DNA from: Candidatus Formimonas warabiya
GTDB taxonomy: Bacteria; Bacillota; Dehalobacteriia; Dehalobacteriales; Dehalobacteriaceae
Direction: 5' to 3'
DNA: 64,000 nucleotides
Assembly (NCBI RefSeq): GCF_002777255.1
Contig: NZ_CP017634.1
Location: 248,001 to 312,000, forward strand
Of the stretch, positions 4,467-54,540 are shown in pieces; within the stretch, counting starts at the first letter, position 1, and every line of letters starts with the position of its first letter. Position numbers and translations under genes: made by a program. The notes under the pieces are model-generated. The model did no database searches. It was not told where the DNA came from and saw only the letters and a list, made by a program, of their open reading frames with translations.

Positions 4467-5648
4467 ATGAAAATAGCATGGAAAACCGGAGTGCTTGCAA
4501 TGTTGATCCTGCTTACCCTGTCATGGACAGCTCTCGCCAAAGGAAATGATATCCAAGTAAAAATAAATTCCTTTGGTGAGTGGGGTGAGATTGTCCAAAA
4601 CAGCCTGGAGTTCGGGGATCAGGAAAAACCAAGAATAGAGCAGGGAAGAATATTCATTCCCTTGCGAAAAATTGCGGAGAACTCTGGATATACCGTCTTA
4701 TTTGATGGAGAAGCCAAGAGAGTTGATCTGCTTGACCGCTATGGGAAGAAGATTGAATTGACTTTGTTCAGTAAAAAAGCGACAGTGAACAACAAAACGG
4801 TAGATTTGGATGTGCCTGCTAAAATGATTAACCGGGTAACCTTTGTTCCCCTTCGATTTATCAGTGAGAGTTTTGATCAGGTAGTGAAGTGGGATCCTGC
4901 AACGCGTACGGTATTTATTGACAATTTCATCATTTCTACACCGGATTATCTCTTTAATCAAAAAACATTGGAATTAAGCAAGCGGGATGAATCGGGTAAA
5001 GGACAGCATCTGGTGCTGGGGAAGATCCCCATGAGTGTGGATTGGGTCAGTATGTACGTAACAAAGACCAAAAACGGAAATGATGTCATTGTCATCAATA
5101 ATAATTCCGGGGCACCTCATTTGTACTATGATATCCATACCATCTACGTTTCAGGAAACGAGATCATCGATCAAAGTGTGGTAAATGCTTTATTTCCCGG
5201 GAAGGCAGTCATTAGTTCAGATGGAGAAAAGGTTGCGATGGGGGATGGAAAAATAGTCCGGGTTTATGACGACAAAACGAAAAAGGTGCAATATGAATAT
5301 GATCTGCTAGCCCTTTTTGAAGCAGAAAAAGATCCCAATCAGGGTGGCTCCTGGGAAACAACCTATGCGATTTTAGGTTTCGGAGATCATTATATTTTGG
5401 TGAAAGATACATATAAAATGCTGACCAAAATGATTTACTTAGATACTAACAAAATTGTAAATGTTTATGAAGCGGTTCTGTCAAAAGAGGAGCAGGAAGA
5501 GGCGTTGAAAAATGCAGGCCCCTTCGGAAGTGGAGATCGTTTAGAATTTATTGAAGAAGAGAACGGGAAGTTAATTTTTAGTAAATCCTACTATGAGGCA
5601 CCTTATATAAAAACAAAAAAAGTAGAGTATAGTCTGGAAAGTTTATAA
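4467..5648 (+). CDS. Exported stalk-domain protein
   Basis: 393-aa secreted protein: signal peptide of about 24 residues ending TALA-KG, then a copper-amine-oxidase N-domain/stalk region at about residues 45-155 (RIFIPLRKIAENSGY and VTFVPLRFISESFDQ are two copies of its hallmark strand). The remaining ~240 residues have alternating beta-strand character but no motif I recognise. A perfect AAAGGAGGT ribosome site (4450-4458) precedes ATG 4467. One of three stalk proteins in this stretch; probably a cell-surface protein. Function not assignable. Confidence 0.8.
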   Translation: MKIAWKTGVLAMLILLTLSWTALAKGNDIQVKINSFGEWGEIVQNSLEFGDQEKPRIEQGRIFIPLRKIAENSGYTVLFDGEAKRVDLLDRYGKKIELTLFSKKATVNNKTVDLDVPAKMINRVTFVPLRFISESFDQVVKWDPATRTVFIDNFIISTPDYLFNQKTLELSKRDESGKGQHLVLGKIPMSVDWVSMYVTKTKNGNDVIVINNNSGAPHLYYDIHTIYVSGNEIIDQSVVNALFPGKAVISSDGEKVAMGDGKIVRVYDDKTKKVQYEYDLLALFEAEKDPNQGGSWETTYAILGFGDHYILVKDTYKMLTKMIYLDTNKIVNVYEAVLSKEEQEEALKNAGPFGSGDRLEFIEEENGKLIFSKSYYEAPYIKTKKVEYSLESL

Positions 5649-44009: not shown

Positions 44010-45602
44010 CTAGGTCTTGCAATATTTTACAGCTTCCTCATAAATTCTGCGGTACTTTATCCTTTTTGGCACGGCCCAGAGCGCCTCAAAGCCGGAGAGA
44101 TATTCCCCTTTGTAAAGAGAGAGGATTTTTTGAGCGGTATCGATACAGGGCTGCTGTTCAAAAGCGCTGCAGGCCGCTTCAAACAAATCGATATCGGACG
44201 TGATTTCGTCCCGACAGAGGATGTAATGCTTTTGATGGTTCACCACAGAAAGGGAAATGCCAAGGCCGGCAAGGTCTGTTCTGATGTGGGTAATATTGAC
44301 ATCGATCAATTTTTTGATATTCCGGGATTCGGAGTCAAACCAGATGGCTTCATAGATCTGCTCCTTCGTGGCCCCATCGTCGCCCGCGTCAATAAGAAAT
44401 GCCAGAAGCTCGCGCTCTTTTTTGGAGCGCATTTTTACCGGCCTCTTTCTGTTTTTACAGGCAAAAACGGAGAAACCGCCAAAGGTTTCAATATAGATTT
44501 TCTTTTCCCCAAAGCCTGCCAGATCCATCATCTGCCTTGCAAAATCAGGTTCGATGTCATTGGCGAGGGCGTACTGAAGAATAATCCCGTACCGGTCTCG
44601 CATTTTAAAATAACTGTATATTCCGTTTCGGGAGCATAGCTGAAGGCAGCGGCTTGCTGGTGAAAAGCGCGTGGTACCGGAACACGGTGCCGCTGGTCCT
44701 GATCGTAAAAATATTGCGCGCGGCCAGGCTGTCCAGAATAAGCCTGGCGTTTTGGATGCCCAATACAGCATTCAGCATCGGCGCATCCAGTTCCTCAAAG
44801 CAGGCGGTGGTGTGCAGAAAATCCACCACCTCCGGCGCGAGGCGCAGGATGCATTCATGAAGGAGGTATTCATACAGCGTATCATGACCGTGGGATGGGG
44901 TCGCCCCAGGTGAAATGCCGTTTTGAAAAAGCACCTTAAAGGAACCGAAGGCCAGAGGCCATCCTTCTGCCAGCGCGTAAAGATGGTCGTCATCAAAGCC
45001 AATAAAACGCGCTGCCTCATCCTTGGTAAATTGCATTTCCTTTTGCGTAAGTTCCAGAATTTTCCCTCGCGCCCGCAGGGCCGCCAGTCCCGGCCAGGGA
45101 ATCTCGCGGCTGCCCAGGCAAAGCCGCACGTTTTCCGGCAGGTATTTCATGATGTAAGCAATAAGCTCTCTTAACCCGGGATCGTTAATGGTATGGAGGT
45201 CATCCAGAAGGATGGCAAAGCTGCCGAAAGCTTTTCCAGGCTGTTTAAAAACGCATTGGCAAGGAGCGTGATGAAATTCTCTCTGCCCTCAAAGGGCATA
45301 AATTCCGAGGTGGAAAAGCGGTAACCCTGAAACACCCGGCCCACAGCCTCGCTTAATAAGCCGACAAAAGTGAAAATCTCATTTTTCCCGTCAAGCGAAA
45401 TCCAAACAGCAATCTTATAGGAGCCCGCTATTTGTGCAAGCAGCGTAGTCTTTCCGTAGCCCGCTCCGGCATGAATATAGATAAGTCTTTTGGGACTTTG
45501 AAGAATGGTGTCCAAAAGCTCCTGGCGGACAAGTCCCCCCGGAGTCGCTTTCGGGCACGTCAGCCTCACGCCTGCAATGCCGCTCATTTCAGATACCCCC
45601 AT
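44010..45602 (-). pseudogene. Frameshifted MalT/LuxR-type ATPase regulator with BTAD domain
   Basis: Three pieces in different frames on the complementary strand make one gene. First (45602 to ~45220): NTPase with Walker A IYIHAGAGYGKTTLLAQIA. A frameshift near 45215-45225 moves LLDDLHTINDPG (Walker B) into the next frame, which continues to ~44650 (LCLGSREIPWPGLAALRARG, LAEGWPLAFGS). A second break near 44640-44660 leads to a C-terminal winged helix and BTAD part (SKKERELLAFLIDAGDDGAT, LIDVNITHIRTDL, YKGEYLSGFEALW). The central helical-repeat region of such ~1000-aa activators is largely missing, so it is decayed, not just frameshifted. Confidence 0.8.
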
Positions 45603-46133: not shown

Positions 46134-48389
46134 ATGGGGAATAAAATACTGAGAATAGTGCTTGTCCTTATTCTTGTTTTCTCATTGGCTGGCTGCAGAA
46201 ACGAGAGCGGACAGACAACCGGAGCCGACGATAACAGCGGCAAGCTAAATACCGTTGATGACCTCAAAGATAAACGGATTGGGGTTTTGTTAGGCGGTAT
46301 TCACGACGATTACGCAAATAAGACTTATCCTGATGCCACCGTCTTGCAGTATAAAAGCCAATCCGACCTGATTCTTGCCGTAAAGACAGGAAAGGTCGAC
46401 GCGGCTTTCTATACCCACGAATCACTGCTGACGATGATGCGGGAGGACGATAAGCTGGCTTTTTTAGGGCAGAATCTGTTTAGAGTGCCCATGGGCATGG
46501 GCTTTAACCAGAACAATGATGCCTTGCGGGAAGAGTTCAACACATTTTTAGCTGAAATCAAAAATAACGGCGTTTATGACGACATGGTCAAGAGATGGAT
46601 CACCGACGGAACCACAGAAATGCCGGTGCTAGAAAACCCCAAAAACAACGGCCGTCTCGTCGTGGGTGTCGTCAGCGACAAAGGGATGCCTTTTGCCATT
46701 GTGAAAAACAACAAAATAGTTGGTTTTGATATTGAAATGGCAGAAAGATTTGCCGCTTATTTGGGAAAAGAACTTGTTCTGGAGGACATGGAATTCAGCA
46801 GCCTGATTTCCGCTGCTGCCGGCAATAAGATTGATATGATCGACAGCACCCTGGTGATCACGGAAGAAAGAAAGAAGCAGATTGATTTTTCCGACCCCTA
46901 TTATGAATTAGGGGCAAGCGTCTTTGCCCTGAAAAAAAATATCGCCCGCTATGACGACAGTAGTCAAGAAAATGGGGCGATGACGCTGGATGATTTAAAA
47001 GATAAGCGGATCGGAGTTTTGACCGGCTCGGCAGGCGACAATGCCGCCCGGCAGAGATTTCCCCAGGCCCAAATATTTGATATGAACAATATTATTGATG
47101 CCGCTGGGGCACTGAGTAGCAACAAGATCGATGCAGTTGTCTTTGAGCGCACCACCCTCCAAGATATTGCCAAACAGAATCCGGATTTAGAACTGATCAA
47201 GGAGCCGGTACAATTAGTTGATGTGGCTATTGCCCTAAAGAAAGACAATCCCCTTTTATTAAATTCGGTAAACCAGGCCATCACAGATCTGGAGAATCAA
47301 GGAACTCTGGATGAGATGAAAAAGCGCTGGTTTACCGAAGGTAATTTGCCGGCCATGCCCCAGTTTGATCCTCCTGCTGCCCAGGAAACCTTGCGCGTGG
47401 GCACCGAGGCACTGATGCCTCCCTTTGAATTTGTCACCGGCACCAATGAAGTGAGCGGTTTTGATATCGAGCTGGCAGAGCGTATCGGCCAGGCCCTGGG
47501 CAAAAAGGTAGTCGTTGAGAATATGAACTTTTCCGCCCTGATACCGGCCCTGCAATCCGGCAAAATTGATCTGGCTATTTCCTGCTTTAATGTAACCGAG
47601 GAACGCAAACAAAAGGTTGATTTCTCCAGGCCCTATCATACCAGTGATACGGCGGCGATGGTAAAAAAAGCGGTAAACGTTTCCCAGTTCCGTAAAATCT
47701 TCGGCAATATCAAAACCAGTTTCTACAGCAATATCATCATGGAGCAGCGTTACCTGCTGATCGTTGACGGCTTGAAAATAACTGTCCTCATCTCGTTGCT
47801 TTCCGTAATTTTTGGTACGCTGCTGGGGGCCCTCATCTGTTTCATGCGCATGGCGAAAAACCAGGTCCTGAGCAGGATGGCCCGGGTTTACATCTCCATC
47901 TTGCGGGGAACTCCGGTGCTGGTCCTGTTGATGCTCGTTTTCTATGTGGTGTTTGCCTCGGTAGATATTAACCCGGTACTGGTGGCGGTGATCGCCTTTG
48001 GTATGAACTTTGGCGCCTATGTTTCCGAAATGTTCCGCACCGCCATCGAAAGTGTTGACAAAGGACAAAGGGAGGCCGGGATTGCCGGTGGTTTTACCGC
48101 CCTGCAAACCTTCCTCTATATTATCATGCCCCAGGCGGTGAGACAGGTGCTGCCGGTCTATAAGGGGGAGTTTATCTCCCTGGTCAAAATGACTTCTGTT
48201 GTTGGGTATATCGCCGTCCAGGACCTGACCAAGGCCAGCGACATCATCAGAAGCCGCACCTTTGACGCCTTCTTCCCCCTGGTAATGGTGGCGGTGCTCT
48301 ATTTTATCATCTCCGGGCTGTTGGCCCTGGCCCTGGACTATATCGGCCTGAAAACAGACCCGAAAAGAAATCGTAAACAGGTGGTGTAA
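46134..48389 (+). CDS. Amino-acid ABC transporter: tandem substrate-binding domains fused to permease
   Basis: 751-aa lipoprotein-type protein: signal peptide with lipobox SLAGC; then SBP_bac_3-type domains in tandem (a half-domain ~35-165; a full domain ~170-400, RLVVGVVSDKGMPFAIV ... ERKKQIDFSDPYYELGA; a lobe ~405-530, LRVGTEALMPPFEFVTG ... VDFSRPYHTSD), then a His/Glu/Gln/Arg-type permease (~545-740) with ILRGTPVLVLLMLVFYV and the EAA loop EAGIAGGFTALQTFLYIIMPQAVRQ. Family transports polar amino acids. No ATP-binding subunit is adjacent, which is unusual; it must borrow one or act as a sensor. AAAGGGGAAA precedes ATG 46134. Confidence 0.9.
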   Translation: MGNKILRIVLVLILVFSLAGCRNESGQTTGADDNSGKLNTVDDLKDKRIGVLLGGIHDDYANKTYPDATVLQYKSQSDLILAVKTGKVDAAFYTHESLLTMMREDDKLAFLGQNLFRVPMGMGFNQNNDALREEFNTFLAEIKNNGVYDDMVKRWITDGTTEMPVLENPKNNGRLVVGVVSDKGMPFAIVKNNKIVGFDIEMAERFAAYLGKELVLEDMEFSSLISAAAGNKIDMIDSTLVITEERKKQIDFSDPYYELGASVFALKKNIARYDDSSQENGAMTLDDLKDKRIGVLTGSAGDNAARQRFPQAQIFDMNNIIDAAGALSSNKIDAVVFERTTLQDIAKQNPDLELIKEPVQLVDVAIALKKDNPLLLNSVNQAITDLENQGTLDEMKKRWFTEGNLPAMPQFDPPAAQETLRVGTEALMPPFEFVTGTNEVSGFDIELAERIGQALGKKVVVENMNFSALIPALQSGKIDLAISCFNVTEERKQKVDFSRPYHTSDTAAMVKKAVNVSQFRKIFGNIKTSFYSNIIMEQRYLLIVDGLKITVLISLLSVIFGTLLGALICFMRMAKNQVLSRMARVYISILRGTPVLVLLMLVFYVVFASVDINPVLVAVIAFGMNFGAYVSEMFRTAIESVDKGQREAGIAGGFTALQTFLYIIMPQAVRQVLPVYKGEFISLVKMTSVVGYIAVQDLTKASDIIRSRTFDAFFPLVMVAVLYFIISGLLALALDYIGLKTDPKRNRKQVV

Positions 48390-48562
48390 GCCTATGATTT
48401 ATGTCTAAAGAAAATGTAAGGTTGTTTGATGAAGAAGGCACTGAGGAAAGCAAGGTTCCCGAATATAAATAAAAATGCCAAGAAGGCATGTCTGATGCCA
48501 GAAAGGCTCTGTGTAACGGACACAGATCATCTAAAATAAACATAAATGAGGGAGATGTCAAT

Positions 48563-48859
48563 ATGAATATCAATAAGACACTGGATGGAAGTAAATTAAC
48601 CTTATCTCTTGCAGGCAGGCTGGACAGCAATACCGCCCCCCTGCTGGAGACGGAACTGAAAGCAAGCCTGGAAGACATAACGGAACTGGTAATGGATTTT
48701 GCCGAACTGGTCTACCTGTCCAGTGCGGGGCTTCGCGTCATTCTCACCGGACAGAAGCAGATGAATAAGCAGGGCAAAATGGTGCTTGTCAATGTCAATG
48801 AAACAGTGATGGAGATTTTTCAGGTAACCGGTTTTGCAGAAATTCTCACCATCGAGTAA
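48563..48859 (+). CDS. STAS-domain anti-sigma factor antagonist
   Basis: 98-aa SpoIIAA/RsbV-like protein: LTLSLAGRLDSNTAPLLETE and the phospho-acceptor region VYLSSAGLRVIL with the conserved Ser. In partner switching the dephosphorylated form binds the kinase. ATG 48563 follows GAGGGAGAT; a longer frame to 48488 lacks a site. The SpoIIE phosphatase and RsbW-like kinase needed to complete the switch lie in the same operon. Confidence 0.9.
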   Translation: MNINKTLDGSKLTLSLAGRLDSNTAPLLETELKASLEDITELVMDFAELVYLSSAGLRVILTGQKQMNKQGKMVLVNVNETVMEIFQVTGFAEILTIE

Positions 48860-48871
48860 GAATGAAAGGGC

Positions 48872-50644
48872 ATGATGAAGGATAATTACTACTTAATCAG
48901 TAAAAGTTTTCAAAGATACCTGGTCCCGTCCATATTGGCTATTCTGGGCGGGAATATCAGCTTCATGGCTGACCATATCATCGCCGGAAAAGTACTGGGA
49001 AGTAATGCCCTCGCTGCCATGAGTATGGTAAATCCTTTATTTTTCCTGTTCACAACGCTGGGGACCCTGATTTGTGTCGGCTCTTCCACCATGGCATCTA
49101 TTTGTTTAGGCAAAGAGGATAGGCATACGGCAAATAAACTTTTCACCCTTACTGCGCTGCTGGTTTTGATTTTGGGCGGATTAATCAGCATTACAGGATA
49201 CCTATTTCTGAATCCTCTCGTAAACCTCATCAGTGATGGAAAAGAACTTCATGCCATGGTTTATGAGTATTGCCGGGGACTGATACCGGGTTCAATCTGC
49301 ATTATGGCTGTCTACCTTCCCTTGAACTTTTTCCGGATTGAAGGGAGAGGCCATCTGGGCATGATGATGTTTCTCATCATGGCCGTGCTGGACATTGGGC
49401 TGGACCTGTATTTTACCCTTGTGCTGGGGATGGGGATGTTTGGCCTGGCCATTGCAACGGTCTTCAGTTCTCTGATTGCAGTGATCGTGATGTTTCCTTT
49501 CCTTTTCACCAAGGGAGGATACCGCTTCGTATCCATTGGTAAATCCATACGGCTGGTAAACGGTATCCTCATTGTCGGAAGTCCCCCGGCCCTAAACAAC
49601 TTTTATTCCGTGATCAGGACATTTATCTTAAATATGCTGATCTTAGCCTTTGGAGGACCCGTTGCGGTAGCCGGCTTTGCCTTTGTCAACAGCGTCAATA
49701 CGCTGGCCCAGGCAATTGTTTCCGGGATTGCCCAAACAGTATCCCCTTTGGTTGGCGTGTTTTACGGTGAACATGATGTCATCAGCATCCGGAAAGTATT
49801 TACCCTTGCCATCAAATTTGGCCTTGCCTCCATGGTGGTATTTAGTATTCTTATCTCCGTATTTGCCCGACAAATCTGTCTCTTGTTCGGACTGACTTCC
49901 ACCGGGCAGCAGCAGATCGCGATTCCTGCCCTCGTCATATGTTCCCTTAGTCTGACTGGGGTTATGGTGAACCAGATATTAGGCTACTATTACATGACCA
50001 TAGGCAGAACAAAAATAGCCAACCTGCTTACGCTGTGCAGAGGGCTTTTATTCATCGTCTTGGCGGCTTTGATGCTGTCGCAAGTATGGGGACTTTACGG
50101 GATTTGGATTAGTTTTTCCGTGAGCGAGCTTTTAACCCTTGCCATCGTTATGATCACTGCCAGGCAAACGCTCCGCAGGGAGAGGGAGTTGAGCGGAGTG
50201 CTTCTGCTGAACCACCGTGACGTCGATGAAGGAAGATTTATTTCTTTTTCCGTGGATACCAATGTGGAGGCGGTCATGGAAAGCTCAGATAAAATAAGCG
50301 ATTTCTGTGAAAACTGCCGCCTGAATCCCAAACAATCAATGGTGATCAGCTTAGCCATTGAAGAAATACTCCTATTAATGCTGAAACAGGTATTTGAAGG
50401 CAAAGATCATGATTCCATTGATGTGAAGATCTTTGTCCGGGATGACAGGGTTATCATGCGGTTCCGGTGCGGGGGCAGAAAATTCAACCCTCTTGAATAC
50501 TATAAGACAGCCATGGAAAAATCCCATGGGCCTGAGGACCTTGATACGGATGAAAGCATGGGTCTTAAGCTCATTTCTAAGATGGCAAAGAAGGTAGATT
50601 ATTCCACGAATCTCGGTCTGAACAACATTATTATCAGGCTTTAA
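48872..50644 (+). CDS. MATE transporter fused to a degenerate HATPase (RsbW-like) domain
   Basis: 590-aa protein. Residues ~1-445 are a MATE/NorM-type multidrug transporter with twelve helices (SILAILGGNISFMADHIIAG, MVNPLFFLFTTLGTLICVG, and a symmetric second half). Residues ~455-590 look like an anti-sigma HATPase_c domain: VMESSDKISDFCENCRLNPK, ISLAIEEILLLMLKQVFEG (N-box without Asn), VIMRFRCGGRKFNP (G1 box without the Asp) and MGLKLISKMAKKVDYS (G2). Loss of both key residues suggests it no longer binds ATP but may still bind the STAS protein. The gene follows the STAS gene by 12 bp. Confidence 0.82.
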   Translation: MMKDNYYLISKSFQRYLVPSILAILGGNISFMADHIIAGKVLGSNALAAMSMVNPLFFLFTTLGTLICVGSSTMASICLGKEDRHTANKLFTLTALLVLILGGLISITGYLFLNPLVNLISDGKELHAMVYEYCRGLIPGSICIMAVYLPLNFFRIEGRGHLGMMMFLIMAVLDIGLDLYFTLVLGMGMFGLAIATVFSSLIAVIVMFPFLFTKGGYRFVSIGKSIRLVNGILIVGSPPALNNFYSVIRTFILNMLILAFGGPVAVAGFAFVNSVNTLAQAIVSGIAQTVSPLVGVFYGEHDVISIRKVFTLAIKFGLASMVVFSILISVFARQICLLFGLTSTGQQQIAIPALVICSLSLTGVMVNQILGYYYMTIGRTKIANLLTLCRGLLFIVLAALMLSQVWGLYGIWISFSVSELLTLAIVMITARQTLRRERELSGVLLLNHRDVDEGRFISFSVDTNVEAVMESSDKISDFCENCRLNPKQSMVISLAIEEILLLMLKQVFEGKDHDSIDVKIFVRDDRVIMRFRCGGRKFNPLEYYKTAMEKSHGPEDLDTDESMGLKLISKMAKKVDYSTNLGLNNIIIRL

Positions 50645-50679
50645 TAACTACAATTTAGGTACAAGTAAGGAGGTTAATC

Positions 50680-52740
50680 ATGCGCATCGGCAAAAAAATC
50701 TTATTATCTCTCTTGGGATTAGCCTTATTGGTCACCATCCTGTTGGGGGCAGTGTCATTTTATGGATTTTCTGATATTAAAGCAACGTTTCAGGAAGAAA
50801 ACAAGACCGCCATTGATGAACTCTACAAGAAAAATGTGGCGGAAATAACCCAGAGCAGCTCCAAACTGGCTATTTCTCTGGCAAACTACAATGCTCAGAC
50901 CATTAACATAGATTTTGAGAGAATTATGGGCGAACTCAAAACCATGAAAGGTGATATTGAGACCCTCTATAAAAATGGCGGGACCACCGATTATACCTCC
51001 CTCAGCAGATATGAGGAGTATATTATCTCCCAGGCGGCAAACCCCAGCAAGAAGGAAATAGATCAGACACTGAAAACCTTGAGTGCGGCTACACCTATGT
51101 TTGACAATATCTTACGCATTGAGCCGAAGATTTCCTTAGCCTACCTGGTACTGGAAAACGGCATGGTTATTTCCAGCTCCGATACCTTTTACGAGGCGGT
51201 AGAAAAAGCGGATATGCGCACAAGAGCCTGGTATAAGGATGCCGTAGCGGCAGGTACTGTCCACTGGTCCGATCTTTACTCAGGTACGGATTCCAGAAGT
51301 TATGTCACGTGCGCTACTCCGGTTTATGATCAAAAGGGCACCCTCATCGGGGTACTGGCCTTTGATCTTCGCGTCAGTGAAATCTCGGAAAAGGTGCTAA
51401 ACGTAGAAAACAGTTCTTATATCGCTTCATTTATTATGAACAGGAACGGAACCGTGCTGCTCAGTTCACTGGACCTGGAAGAGACGGCAAACAAACCGTA
51501 TTTTCAAAAATTGATCAGCAGCATGGATTTAAAAACAGCCAAATCCGATTATTATGCCGACGACAGTTCCATCATCGGTTATGCCCCCATCAAATCCACG
51601 GATTGGCTTTTGGTTACGGTGCTGGATTTTAACTTAATGATGGCGCCGGTACAATCTGTGGCCAAGTCCGTATCCGCTACGGGAGCGAAAATGGCACAGG
51701 TGATCACAGAAGAGACAACGAAGGTGCTGGTCGTTTTCCTGATGATCATTCTGGCCCTCGTACTCCTGGTATTTATCACCGCCACTCGCCTGAGCAAGTC
51801 GATCACCAAGCCCGTGGAAATCTTAGCCAACGGAGCGAAAGTAATTGGAGAAGGCAACCTGGATTATGAATTTGCCGACCTGGGCCGTGATGAGATGGGC
51901 ATGCTGGCGGCAACCATTAATGGGATGACTGTTCGCCTCAAAGAGTATATGGGACAGGTGGCAAAAGCTGCCGCGGAAAAGCAGCGATTGGAATCCGAGC
52001 TTGACGTCGCCAGGAGCATCCAGCTGGGCATGCTGCCCAAAAGGATTGACTGCCCGGGTTATGACGTCTCCGGCATGATGCTTCCGGCCAAAGAGGTAGG
52101 AGGAGACTTCTATGATTTCTTCCTGGTCGGTGAGGATAAGCTCTGTTTTGTGGTGGCAGACGTTTCGGGAAAGGGAGTCGGCGCGGCCCTGTTTATGACC
52201 ATTGCCAAGATGGTCATTAAAACGGCGGCACAGGCAAATAATGTCACGGTAAATGAGCTTTTAGGCATCGCCAATAACCTGCTCTGCCAGGAAAATCCTG
52301 CTGAGCTTTTCGTGACGGCTTATGTGGGCATCATGGATATTGATACCGGAGAGGCTTCTTATGCCTGTGCCGGGCATAATCCCCCTGTGATCAGTCACAG
52401 AGACGGCACAGTTGAATTTATTCCTGTTAAAAACAAACTTCCTCTTGCGGCAATGGAAGAAACAAAATACCCCATCATGCACATGCGGCTTTTGGAAGGG
52501 GAGACCTTAATCTTATATACGGACGGCGTTACAGAGGCAACCAATAGGGAAAATGAACTGTATGGGGATGCCCGTTTGCTGAGTATTGTGAAAGAGCTGC
52601 ATGGGGCGACCATACATGAAGTGATTCATGGCGTCAAAGCAAATGTGGATCTATTTGTTGCCGAAGCCCCCCAATTTGACGATATTACCATCGTGGCCAT
52701 TCGAAGAATAGGGAAAGAGGAAGAGAGAATCTCAAGATGA
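50680..52740 (+). CDS. Membrane-bound SpoIIE-type PP2C phosphatase with dCache sensor
   Basis: 686-aa sensor phosphatase. N-terminal helix (LLSLLGLALLVTILLGAVSF), outer dCache-like domain ~35-350 (WYKDAVAAGTVHWSDLYSG, IIGYAPIKSTDWLLVTVLD), second helix ~355-375, HAMP ~376-430, short coiled coil, then PP2C/SpoIIE ~450-680 with metal-site motifs VGGDFYDFF, VVADVSGKGVGAALFM, LYTDGVTEA and FDDITIVAI. Dephosphorylates a STAS protein when the outer sensor is engaged. dCache domains often bind amino acids, which would fit the operon's amino-acid-binding protein; inference. AAGGAGGT before ATG 50680; stop overlaps next start. Confidence 0.92.
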   Translation: MRIGKKILLSLLGLALLVTILLGAVSFYGFSDIKATFQEENKTAIDELYKKNVAEITQSSSKLAISLANYNAQTINIDFERIMGELKTMKGDIETLYKNGGTTDYTSLSRYEEYIISQAANPSKKEIDQTLKTLSAATPMFDNILRIEPKISLAYLVLENGMVISSSDTFYEAVEKADMRTRAWYKDAVAAGTVHWSDLYSGTDSRSYVTCATPVYDQKGTLIGVLAFDLRVSEISEKVLNVENSSYIASFIMNRNGTVLLSSLDLEETANKPYFQKLISSMDLKTAKSDYYADDSSIIGYAPIKSTDWLLVTVLDFNLMMAPVQSVAKSVSATGAKMAQVITEETTKVLVVFLMIILALVLLVFITATRLSKSITKPVEILANGAKVIGEGNLDYEFADLGRDEMGMLAATINGMTVRLKEYMGQVAKAAAEKQRLESELDVARSIQLGMLPKRIDCPGYDVSGMMLPAKEVGGDFYDFFLVGEDKLCFVVADVSGKGVGAALFMTIAKMVIKTAAQANNVTVNELLGIANNLLCQENPAELFVTAYVGIMDIDTGEASYACAGHNPPVISHRDGTVEFIPVKNKLPLAAMEETKYPIMHMRLLEGETLILYTDGVTEATNRENELYGDARLLSIVKELHGATIHEVIHGVKANVDLFVAEAPQFDDITIVAIRRIGKEEERISR

Positions 52741-54098
52741 ACAACAGAGCTGAAGAATTGATCTATGATCATTTTATAGATAAATTTCTTGGGAAAACAG
52801 AACAGTGTGTGGGTGTGGAAATTGAACTGCCTGTGCTGAATCTGGCCAGGCAGCCGGTGGAACCGGAATTTTCCCAAGCCATGGTTGATCTATTGGTACA
52901 CCGGTTTCAATTCAGGCCGACCGGATTCACTCTGGAGGGTTTTCCTAGCGAAGCAGTCAATGACAAGGGAGATGTCTTTTCCTTTGAAACCAGCTTTAAC
53001 ACCATTGAATTCTCCATGGGAAAAGAAAGAAGTGTTATCGAAATAGCCGATCGTTTCTATCCGTATTTAAGGGCTTTAAAAGAGCTTGAGAAATCACACC
53101 ATCATCTCATATGCGGAATGGGTACAAATCCTTATGCGGAATATGCGGACAGCAAACCACTGCATACGCCGGCTCTGACGGCCAAATCCCAGTTCTTAAA
53201 AAAATTCACCACCCATCATGACGGCGAAATCTTTCATGCATTTTCTGCCGCAACACAGACACATCTTGACGTCAGGCTTCCGGACCTTCCAAACCGGCTG
53301 AACCTGCTGGGAAAGTTAGCCTTTGCGGATGGCATACTTTTTGCCAATTCCCTTCCCTTTCCCTATGGACAAACCGGTGCTTGGAAAGCTAAGCTTCCCT
53401 TAAGCCTGGTCCAGGAAATGGGAGACCATACCTTGTGTTTCCGGGATACCCTCTGGCGGTTATGTGAAGCACCCAATACCGCTGCTTATGATCAGGACTA
53501 CCGTTCTATTGAAGATGTGGCAGGTCACTTGATGGATCTGAAGATCTTTTTAGTAAGTGATGGTAACGATGGATTTAGGCCGATCCGGCCCGTTAAATTC
53601 TCCGATTATTTCCAGGATCAGGACAAGCCGGAGCAGGACGTCTTATGCTTTCGCTCCCTTGAGCCCATTGCGGTCAGCAAACATGGAACCATTGAAATAA
53701 GGCATACTTGCACCCAACCCCTGTCGGAGATTTTTATCCCCACTGCTTTTTACACGGGCATTTCAGAAAATTATGGAGAAGCCGCGGAACTCGTCCAGGA
53801 ATTTTGGCGGGAAAACAAGATTGCCATGACCAACTCGGAACTACGCTGCCAGGCAGTGCACCAGGGAAGGATTGCCCCCCCGGAAAACATGCATTATTTT
53901 ATGAAAAACCTGGTCACTATTTCCTGGGAAGGGTTAAAGAAAAGAAATTTTGGCGAAGAAAAATATCTGGCCCACCTGATCCAGGCAGATGATCTCATGG
54001 AATGTCCTGCTAAAAGGCAGCTGCGTTTACTGCAAGAGGGCTTAACCTATCAAGAAATTATTTTGGCATACAGCGCAGTAGATACCTGCAAAAATTAA
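52737..54098 (+). CDS. Glutamate--cysteine ligase-like (GCS2 family) enzyme
   Basis: 453-aa ATP-dependent carboxylate-amine ligase fold: GVEIELPVLNL at the N-terminus, STxxGxE-like ETSFNTIEFSMG, THLDVRLPDLPNRLNLLGKLA and the IEIRHTCTQPLSE motif. Family members join glutamate to cysteine or another amine. The start overlaps the phosphatase gene by 4 bp, so it is tightly coupled to the signalling genes. No gshB or bifunctional gshF is present nearby. Whether it makes gamma-glutamylcysteine or another gamma-glutamyl compound is open. Confidence 0.82.
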   Translation: MNNRAEELIYDHFIDKFLGKTEQCVGVEIELPVLNLARQPVEPEFSQAMVDLLVHRFQFRPTGFTLEGFPSEAVNDKGDVFSFETSFNTIEFSMGKERSVIEIADRFYPYLRALKELEKSHHHLICGMGTNPYAEYADSKPLHTPALTAKSQFLKKFTTHHDGEIFHAFSAATQTHLDVRLPDLPNRLNLLGKLAFADGILFANSLPFPYGQTGAWKAKLPLSLVQEMGDHTLCFRDTLWRLCEAPNTAAYDQDYRSIEDVAGHLMDLKIFLVSDGNDGFRPIRPVKFSDYFQDQDKPEQDVLCFRSLEPIAVSKHGTIEIRHTCTQPLSEIFIPTAFYTGISENYGEAAELVQEFWRENKIAMTNSELRCQAVHQGRIAPPENMHYFMKNLVTISWEGLKKRNFGEEKYLAHLIQADDLMECPAKRQLRLLQEGLTYQEIILAYSAVDTCKN

Positions 54099-54138
54099 GG
54101 GCATCGGAAAACGACGAAAAAAGCGAGGGAAGAATCAA

Positions 54139-54540
54139 ATGGACTATCAATATAAAAAAACCATTGCTGATTTTGATTTAGAGATGCTGAACAGGGAAAT
54201 TGAAGCACTTTGTGCGGAAAACGAACTATTATCGGCCAAGCTGTGTACCCTTCAATTGATCATCGAAGAGCTTGCTACCAATATTATCAAATACGGCGGC
54301 AAAACCGGAAAAGATCACAGCTTAGAAATCAACATCTACACCGAGAAGGAGAAGATCGTGCTCATCATATCCGACAATACCGCTGCCTTTAACCCTCTTG
54401 AAGCGGAAGATCCTGATATCACCCAATCTTCAGAAGAGAGGAAGATTGGCGGCCTGGGTCTTTTCCTTGTGCGAAAAAAAGTTCAATCCCTCACCTATGA
54501 GAACAAGAATGGCCTGAACATTGTGAAGGCCGTGATCTGA
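54139..54540 (+). CDS. RsbW-like anti-sigma/serine kinase (HATPase)
   Basis: 133-aa GHKL ATPase: N-box IIEELATNIIKYGG with the Glu and Asn present, G1 box IISDNTAAFNP with the Asp, G2 box GGLGLFLVRK. Intact ATP site, unlike the domain on the MATE protein. It would phosphorylate the STAS protein at 48563. No sigma factor gene is in the operon, so its output partner lies elsewhere. AGCGAGGGAAG precedes ATG 54139. Confidence 0.88.
   Translation: MDYQYKKTIADFDLEMLNREIEALCAENELLSAKLCTLQLIIEELATNIIKYGGKTGKDHSLEINIYTEKEKIVLIISDNTAAFNPLEAEDPDITQSSEERKIGGLGLFLVRKKVQSLTYENKNGLNIVKAVI

Follow-up and report, generated by a model that had tools for sequence, protein, structure and literature searches.

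In the partner switches RsbU/RsbV/RsbW and SpoIIE/SpoIIAA/SpoIIAB, a phosphatase, a STAS antagonist and a HATPase-type kinase have a sigma factor as their output. Here we describe an operon of Candidatus Formimonas warabiya, a groundwater bacterium, which shares these three components and their motifs but differs from both systems in having no sigma factor gene and in carrying a second, degenerate HATPase domain within a transporter. The operon lies in a stretch of 64,000 nucleotides of contig NZ_CP017634.1 (the window) and comprises six genes, P1 to P6, encoding a substrate-binding protein-permease (SBP-permease), a STAS antagonist, a MATE exporter with a HATPase-type tail, a sensor phosphatase, a GCS2-like ligase and an RsbW-like kinase. 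On balance, it probably constitutes a partner switch that has the transporter as its direct output, together with a linked biosynthetic enzyme.

Partner switching without a sigma factor has precedents. In Pseudomonas aeruginosa, the diguanylate cyclase SiaD is the target of SiaABC, and the same source also cites HsbA-HsbD and a case in Sinorhizobium (PMC7647112). As described there, SiaA is a PP2C sensor phosphatase, SiaC is STAS-like and SiaB is the kinase, the output being an enzyme and, as proposed for the present operon, not a sigma factor. The SiaABCD output differs, since it is a diguanylate cyclase bound by SiaC, and the system has neither a transporter nor a fused pseudo-HATPase. P4 matches the SiaA model NF038263 over residues 331-675 with 84.5 bits against a cut-off of 700 and is therefore not SiaA, and Pfam detected no GGDEF domain in the six operon proteins. 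Switch-type domains on transporters are also known: one review mentions STAS tails on SLC26 (SulP) transporters, as well as a STAS-glycosyltransferase (PMC8256260). In those transporters it is the STAS half of the switch that is attached, whereas here it is the HATPase half, on a MATE protein. We found no description of MATE or ABC proteins with a HATPase tail, or of STAS fusions to nonribosomal peptide synthetases (NRPS), in the open-licence literature, covered mostly as titles and the first lines of abstracts. The earlier note on this DNA knew of no described system with this set of genes. The principle of sigma-free partner switching is already known from SiaABCD; the wiring of the switch to a transporter is new.

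The operon and its conserved core

All six open reading frames (ORFs) are present on one strand and tightly packed (Table 1), with intergenic gaps of 170, 12, 35, -4 and 40 bp in order from P1 to P6, the negative value being the 4-bp overlap of the phosphatase and ligase genes. The listed ORF of P2 opens at 48488; its start is most likely the downstream ATG at 48560, which gives 99 amino acids (aa) and a full STAS match. No ABC ATPase gene lies directly downstream of P1. The domain names given in the earlier note are supported by Pfam for P1, P2, P4, P6 and the MATE part of P3 and have to be qualified for the tail of P3, where the Pfam match is weak, and for P5, whose assignment to GCS2 is transitive. 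A promoter and terminator scan was uninformative, returning the same counts as in shuffled sequence, and an Rfam search gave no match.

Table 1. Genes of the operon, with window coordinates and the profile matches on which the names are based
Gene	Product	Positions	Strand	Matches
P1	SBP-permease: three SBP_bac_3 stretches and ABC permease, 751 aa	46134..48389	+	Pfam SBP_bac_3 2.5e-69, BPD_transp_1 3e-19
P2	Stand-alone STAS antagonist, 99 aa	48560..48859	+	Pfam STAS 5.7e-15; TIGR00377 above its cut-off
P3	MATE exporter fused to degenerate SpoIIAB/RsbW-type HATPase	48872..50644	+	MatE (PF01554) 1.9e-29, two stretches
P4	Membrane sensor phosphatase dCache_1-HAMP-SpoIIE (PP2C), 686 aa	50680..52740	+	SpoIIE 8.8e-46, dCache_1 3.2e-26, HAMP 3.3e-11
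P5	GCS2-like carboxylate-amine ligase, 453 aa	52737..54098	+	TIGR02050 weak, E 0.058; GCS2 via homologue L014
P6	RsbW-like Ser kinase, 133 aa	54139..54540	+	HATPase_c_2 1.8e-17

The switch is complete within the operon, as had been claimed: the STAS protein, the kinase and the phosphatase all have intact motifs and stand in one linked set with a transporter and an enzyme, and Pfam detected no sigma factor among the six proteins. The putative phosphosite of P2, which we take by position to be the counterpart of SpoIIAA Ser58, is Ser54 in the motif YLSSAGLR, and a Ser or Thr occupies this position in 34 of 34 aligned STAS sequences. P4 retains the phosphatase catalytic motifs GGDFYD, ADVSGKG, TDGVTEA and FDDIT, and motif alignment showed intact ATP-binding boxes in P6 (EELATNI, SDNTAAF and GGLGLFLV). 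In the dCache domain of P4, R182, W184, Y185, Y200 and D229 have the same spacing as R126, W128, Y129, Y144 and D173 of the amino acid receptor PctA, whose motif also has an opening aromatic residue, Y121 (PMC10104139). The same spacing was found at loci L008 and L009 (genomes and loci other than the window are cited by our G and L numbers). From these residues, the ligand of the P4 dCache domain is likely to be an amino acid. The phosphatases of the GNAT-type loci described below have only the R-x-W-Y part of the motif.

Among 398 genomes of the phylum, and counting the genome of the window, the MATE-HATPase query was found in 4 (E<=1e-70) and the ligase query in 5 (E<=1e-10). Both proteins occur in two further genomes of another family, G018 and G137, in loci with the order STAS, MATE-HATPase, phosphatase, ligase and kinase. 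All five genes are present in G137, where the phosphatase gene is broken into two ORFs (L009 11708-13744); in G018, the match of the kinase gene to P6 covers residues 1-28 only (L008 ~4952-5098). G613 has the phosphatase, ligase and kinase genes, at a contig end, the ligase being present in 3 of the 63 genomes of its order. Because the same gene order recurs in a different bacterial family, the linkage is beyond chance, and the conserved-neighbourhood check proposed in the earlier note came out in favor of a real gene set. The conserved core is formed by five genes: STAS, MATE-HATPase, phosphatase, ligase and kinase. The SBP-permease, previously counted as a member, is not in this core, being absent from both of the other loci with a readable upstream region (G018 and G137). 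Its place upstream of the STAS gene is taken there by genes that look MBOAT/SGNH-like by eye. As a homologue of P1 occurs in a second switch module of the same genome, described below, we retain P1 as a possible accessory gene.

The ligase is the most divergent member of the core. P5 matched no Pfam family at E<=1, and its link to the YbdK/GCS2 carboxylate-amine ligases goes through a homologue at L014, 26% identical, which itself matches PF04107 (GCS2) at 5e-7; P5 is probably a distant homologue of these ligases, too divergent for direct recognition by Pfam. A PDB sequence search with a P5 profile gave best matches at E 0.23-0.53 only, and structure prediction from the single sequence gave no usable fold (pLDDT 30). 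Close homologues are found in G018, G137 and G613, each adjoining a P4-type phosphatase gene; the distant ones in G370 and G295 have no linkage to switch genes.

The degenerate HATPase domain and its relatives

Residues 1 to ~430 of P3 form a MatE protein, and P3 differs from the MATE efflux family by an extra cytoplasmic HATPase-type domain of ~140 residues (~452-590). This tail matches HATPase_c_2 at E=0.0072 in the whole protein and at 2.8e-4 as a separate domain, below the curated cut-off, and its profile found nothing better than E 0.23 in a PDB sequence search. An AlphaFold2 model built on a two-sequence alignment had a pLDDT of 82.7, and its best PDB matches by Foldseek were the SpoIIAB-SpoIIAA (1tid) and RsbW-RsbV (6m37) complexes, at 9-12% identity (for 1tid_A, E 1.9e-7, TM 0.68 and 9% identity). 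The model clearly has a SpoIIAB/RsbW-type fold.

In GHKL proteins, the Asn of the N box and the Asp of the G1 box bind Mg-ATP. P3 has Leu502 and Cys533 in their place, and the five fusions first compared (those of the window, L004, G018, G137 and G275) all have Leu or Ser for the Asn and Cys or Asn for the Asp. Both residues are retained in P6 and in the kinases of the other loci, according to motif alignments. The idea of the fused HATPase as a second kinase fails for P3, which has lost its ATP-binding residues. An active kinase in the MATE tail is ruled out on this ground in the focal clade and in a small number of other fusions but no further, since other fused MATEs retain the ATP-site residues. 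The ratio dN/dS of three pairs was 0.088, 0.149 and 0.132 in the core of the tail and 0.105, 0.109 and 0.133 in the MATE part. Since the values of the tail are low, about those of the MATE part, the domain is under purifying selection even though its ATP site is gone. The fusion at L004, from Desulfosporosinus fructosivorans, is 79% identical to P3. By eye, the MATE-HATPase genes of L004 (12069-18479) and L149 (393-5336) adjoin genes for ABC exporters of the peptide-exporter type, and small leader-like peptides are also seen at L004, which suggests a ribosomal-peptide cluster.

A profile of the tail domain (A1, E<=1e-6) matched in 85 of the 189 genomes of the order of G275 and in 11 of the 398 phylum genomes. 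Eight of these 11 have a MATE fusion (G000, G018, G032, G137, G145, G249, G275 and G320); in the other three, the match lies within a SpoIIE protein (G386) or in kinases and an ABC fusion (G310 and G400). There are two main types of fusion, to a MATE protein (~590 aa) and to an ABC ATPase (~370 aa). Wider flanks were taken for 48 of the ~150 places with an A1 match in the order of G275, and some contigs stop inside the 7-kb span, so that misses there may be false. A GNAT gene stands beside the fused MATE in 14 loci (L010, L046-L050, L080-L082, L085 and L154-L157); one such switch locus also has a kinase fused to a DJ-1/PfpI domain (L048 2499-3497). The other adjoining enzymes are DapF-like (L051, L053, L058 and L059, by sequence reading, with no Pfam match), NRPS (identified by Pfam in L056, L065 and L078 and by eye in L054 and L083, with a terminal NAD_binding_4 reductase domain in L065 and L078), proteins with a GH3 domain (L055 by Pfam, L150 by similarity and L057 by eye) and ATP-grasp enzymes. 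Diverse as they are, these enzymes plausibly all make or modify amino acids or amides. The STAS half also occurs in fused form, with APH (L054, L055 and L158), with an NRPS Condensation domain (L056, and L160 by homology) and in an LPG_synthase_C-STAS protein (L117, by Pfam) whose gene abuts an unfused MATE gene; L113 and L114 have similar proteins, judged by length and STAS position.

A tree was built on the MATE part alone, with the HATPase columns removed, from 50 fused and 20 unfused proteins, after three fused MATEs shorter than 560 aa had been left out (53 to 50); it comes from a quick search and has several long branches. All fused MATEs fall to the same side of a single branch (SH-aLRT 87), and at least three changes are required on this tree to explain where the N-box Asn has been lost. 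A SpoIIE gene was found within 6 kb in 18 of the 31 fused-MATE loci and in none of the 20 unfused MATE loci. Six of these 20 control loci had some KIN or STAS match, two of them opposite-strand matches of the KIN profile on ORFs of 555-556 aa and four of them STAS matches. Among 40 fused loci besides the window, a same-strand SpoIIE gene within 7 kb accompanied 20 of the 21 that have lost the Asn and 5 of the 19 that have kept it; these loci were hand-picked from matches on long enough contigs, come mostly from one order and include near-copies (L051/L058, L053/L059 and L056/L160). The association (Fisher p 2e-5) does not serve as a test, since an independent-pair analysis of the 38 of the 50 fused rows with flanks read gave only two to three independent pairs, with no significance. 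The pattern fits a dead fused HATPase that needs a separate kinase-phosphatase pair, and we treat it as a lead.

At ~5,891-5,895 kb, the same genome has a second module with the order STAS, kinase, SBP/permease and ABC-pseudo-HATPase, the last with a degenerate HATPase. Its SBP/permease is the P1 homologue (E 1.2e-225), its STAS protein has the motif YISSAGLR and its kinase boxes are intact by eye. Within one genome, the amino acid ABC type and the MATE type thus appear to rely on a common device.

Proposed direct control of the transporter and its alternatives

From these sequences we infer direct control of transport or biosynthesis, not exerted via transcription. The extracytoplasmic dCache domain of P4 would bind an amino acid or a close analogue, and active P4 would then dephosphorylate P2 at Ser54, which P6 would reset by phosphorylating it again; the intact motifs and the example of RsbU/RsbV/RsbW point to these two steps. 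The pseudo-HATPase tail of P3, whose fold is that of domains binding unphosphorylated STAS proteins, would read the state of P2 by binding the unphosphorylated STAS protein and would open or close the exporter, the sequence leaving either sign possible. The cargo is probably an amide that P5 would make by joining an amine or amino acid to glutamate or another carboxylate. The earlier note's proposal that the switch acts directly on transport or on the ligase is favored by the conservation across families, by the degenerate HATPase on the MATE protein and by the STAS-enzyme fusions; its exclusion of transcription is less secure, with a distant sigma factor as a possible partner.

Such a sigma factor would make P6 an anti-sigma kinase of the usual kind and the MATE, ligase and SBP genes mere members of a regulon within the operon. 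P6 does resemble an ordinary anti-sigma kinase, and genes for sigma factors of the extracytoplasmic function (ECF) type stand beside the operons of G018, G137 and G613 and near the second module. Each of them brings a small partner gene of its own, whose product has a shared LVTAAG motif (L008 4157-4962; L009 15734-16605; L166 1-800; L126 14564-15538), and the pair is convergent to the operon in the three other genomes and follows the second module in the same orientation. No sigma factor gene is found in or near the focal operon, and the 64-kb window has no match to the ECF sigma factors of the related loci. As regulation of this kind also leaves the HATPase tail on the MATE protein and the STAS-enzyme fusions unexplained, we consider it improbable. 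The same fusions, found beside HATPase-MATEs (STAS-APH and STAS-Condensation) or abutting an unfused MATE gene (LPG_synthase_C-STAS), speak for a docking device, in which the STAS-HATPase pair would physically tie the biosynthetic enzyme to the exporter for transfer of the product at the membrane, phosphorylation would only make or break the dock, and P2 would bridge P3 and P5. The focal STAS protein is free and P5 has no STAS domain, which makes docking an unlikely account of this operon, if a slightly less unlikely one than the regulon. That the tail is only a structural or dimerization element without any link to STAS, in an inherited cluster of unrelated genes, could be argued from the several fused MATEs with no switch gene nearby (among them L004 and the L060-L065 group). 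We regard this as very improbable given the SpoIIE counts in fused and unfused loci, the fold, which matches STAS-binding anti-sigma domains, and the comparable tail that an ABC ATPase carries in a STAS-kinase operon.

Several observations weigh against a directly switched transporter. With its kinase truncated in G018 and its phosphatase split in G137, the module is either dispensable or in decay in these genomes. The Asn is kept in many fused MATEs that have no switch genes within 7 kb (e.g., L060-L065, where the fused MATE of L060-L064 adjoins an NlpC/P60 gene), the degenerate fusion of L004 has none within that distance either, and most ABC-pseudo-HATPase loci have no switch genes nearby; such fused MATEs and ABC proteins would need partners in trans. 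The link between degeneracy and SpoIIE depends on the few independent events counted above, the ECF genes adjoin the related operons, and the opening aromatic residue of the amino acid motif is not at the expected position in P4, which has A177.

A wider claim, which we put forward tentatively as one of the possibilities, is that these loci belong to a class of signaling modules widespread in Bacillota. The HATPase half would have moved onto exporters (MATE) and importers (ABC ATPase) and the STAS half onto enzymes (NRPS condensation, APH-type kinase and LPG-synthase-like transferase), with phosphorylation gating either the dock between enzyme and exporter or the transport cycle, and repeated loss of the ATP site would have turned the fused domain into a pure reader of STAS phosphorylation. 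If direct control of the transporter is true, the reach of partner switching goes beyond transcription and cyclic-di-GMP synthesis and includes the gating of transport and small-molecule synthesis at the post-translational level. This would account for the anti-sigma-type domain that ends many MATE proteins and some amino acid ABC ATPases, and would provide a means of regulating NRPS and other amide-forming clusters. It predicts, in a form that can be tested, that the pseudo-anti-sigma domain borne by the transporter binds the dephosphorylated STAS protein.

Other switch loci and neighboring genes

The genome encodes four strong stand-alone HATPase_c_2 proteins, seven STAS matches, five SpoIIE matches and four ABC ATPases with a nearly full-length match to the ABC-pseudo-HATPase profile, one of which is that of the second module. 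An ordinary switch is also present, because the kinase gene of L087 has a SpoIIAA-like STAS gene on one side and a sigma-factor-like gene on the other (by eye).

On the minus strand of the window at 44010-45602, three ORFs resemble fragments of one broken regulator of the MalT/LAL type whose C-terminal part is BTAD-like. The G018 operon also has a MalT-like regulator nearby (L008 14279-16795); its similarity to these ORFs is weak (tblastn 22.7%, E 4.7e-8) and was not used.

Three further loci of the genome carry switch-like genes. Near 3,137 kb (L139), a P2-like stand-alone STAS gene follows a gene for a 190-aa protein with a HATPase-like, apparently degenerate sequence. Near 391 kb (L127 7124-10160), an RsbW-like kinase gene, with a xanthine-permease-like gene alongside, is divergently oriented to the gene for a protein of 784 aa that has a STAS domain at its N terminus. 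A possible third module at ~5,902-5,917 kb (L163) includes STAS, GNAT and SpoIIE genes, two AMP-dependent ligase-like genes, aminotransferase-like and xanthine-dehydrogenase-like genes and a gene for a protein of 424 aa that is HATPase-like at its start and matches no Pfam family; a related gene set is present in G386 (L151).

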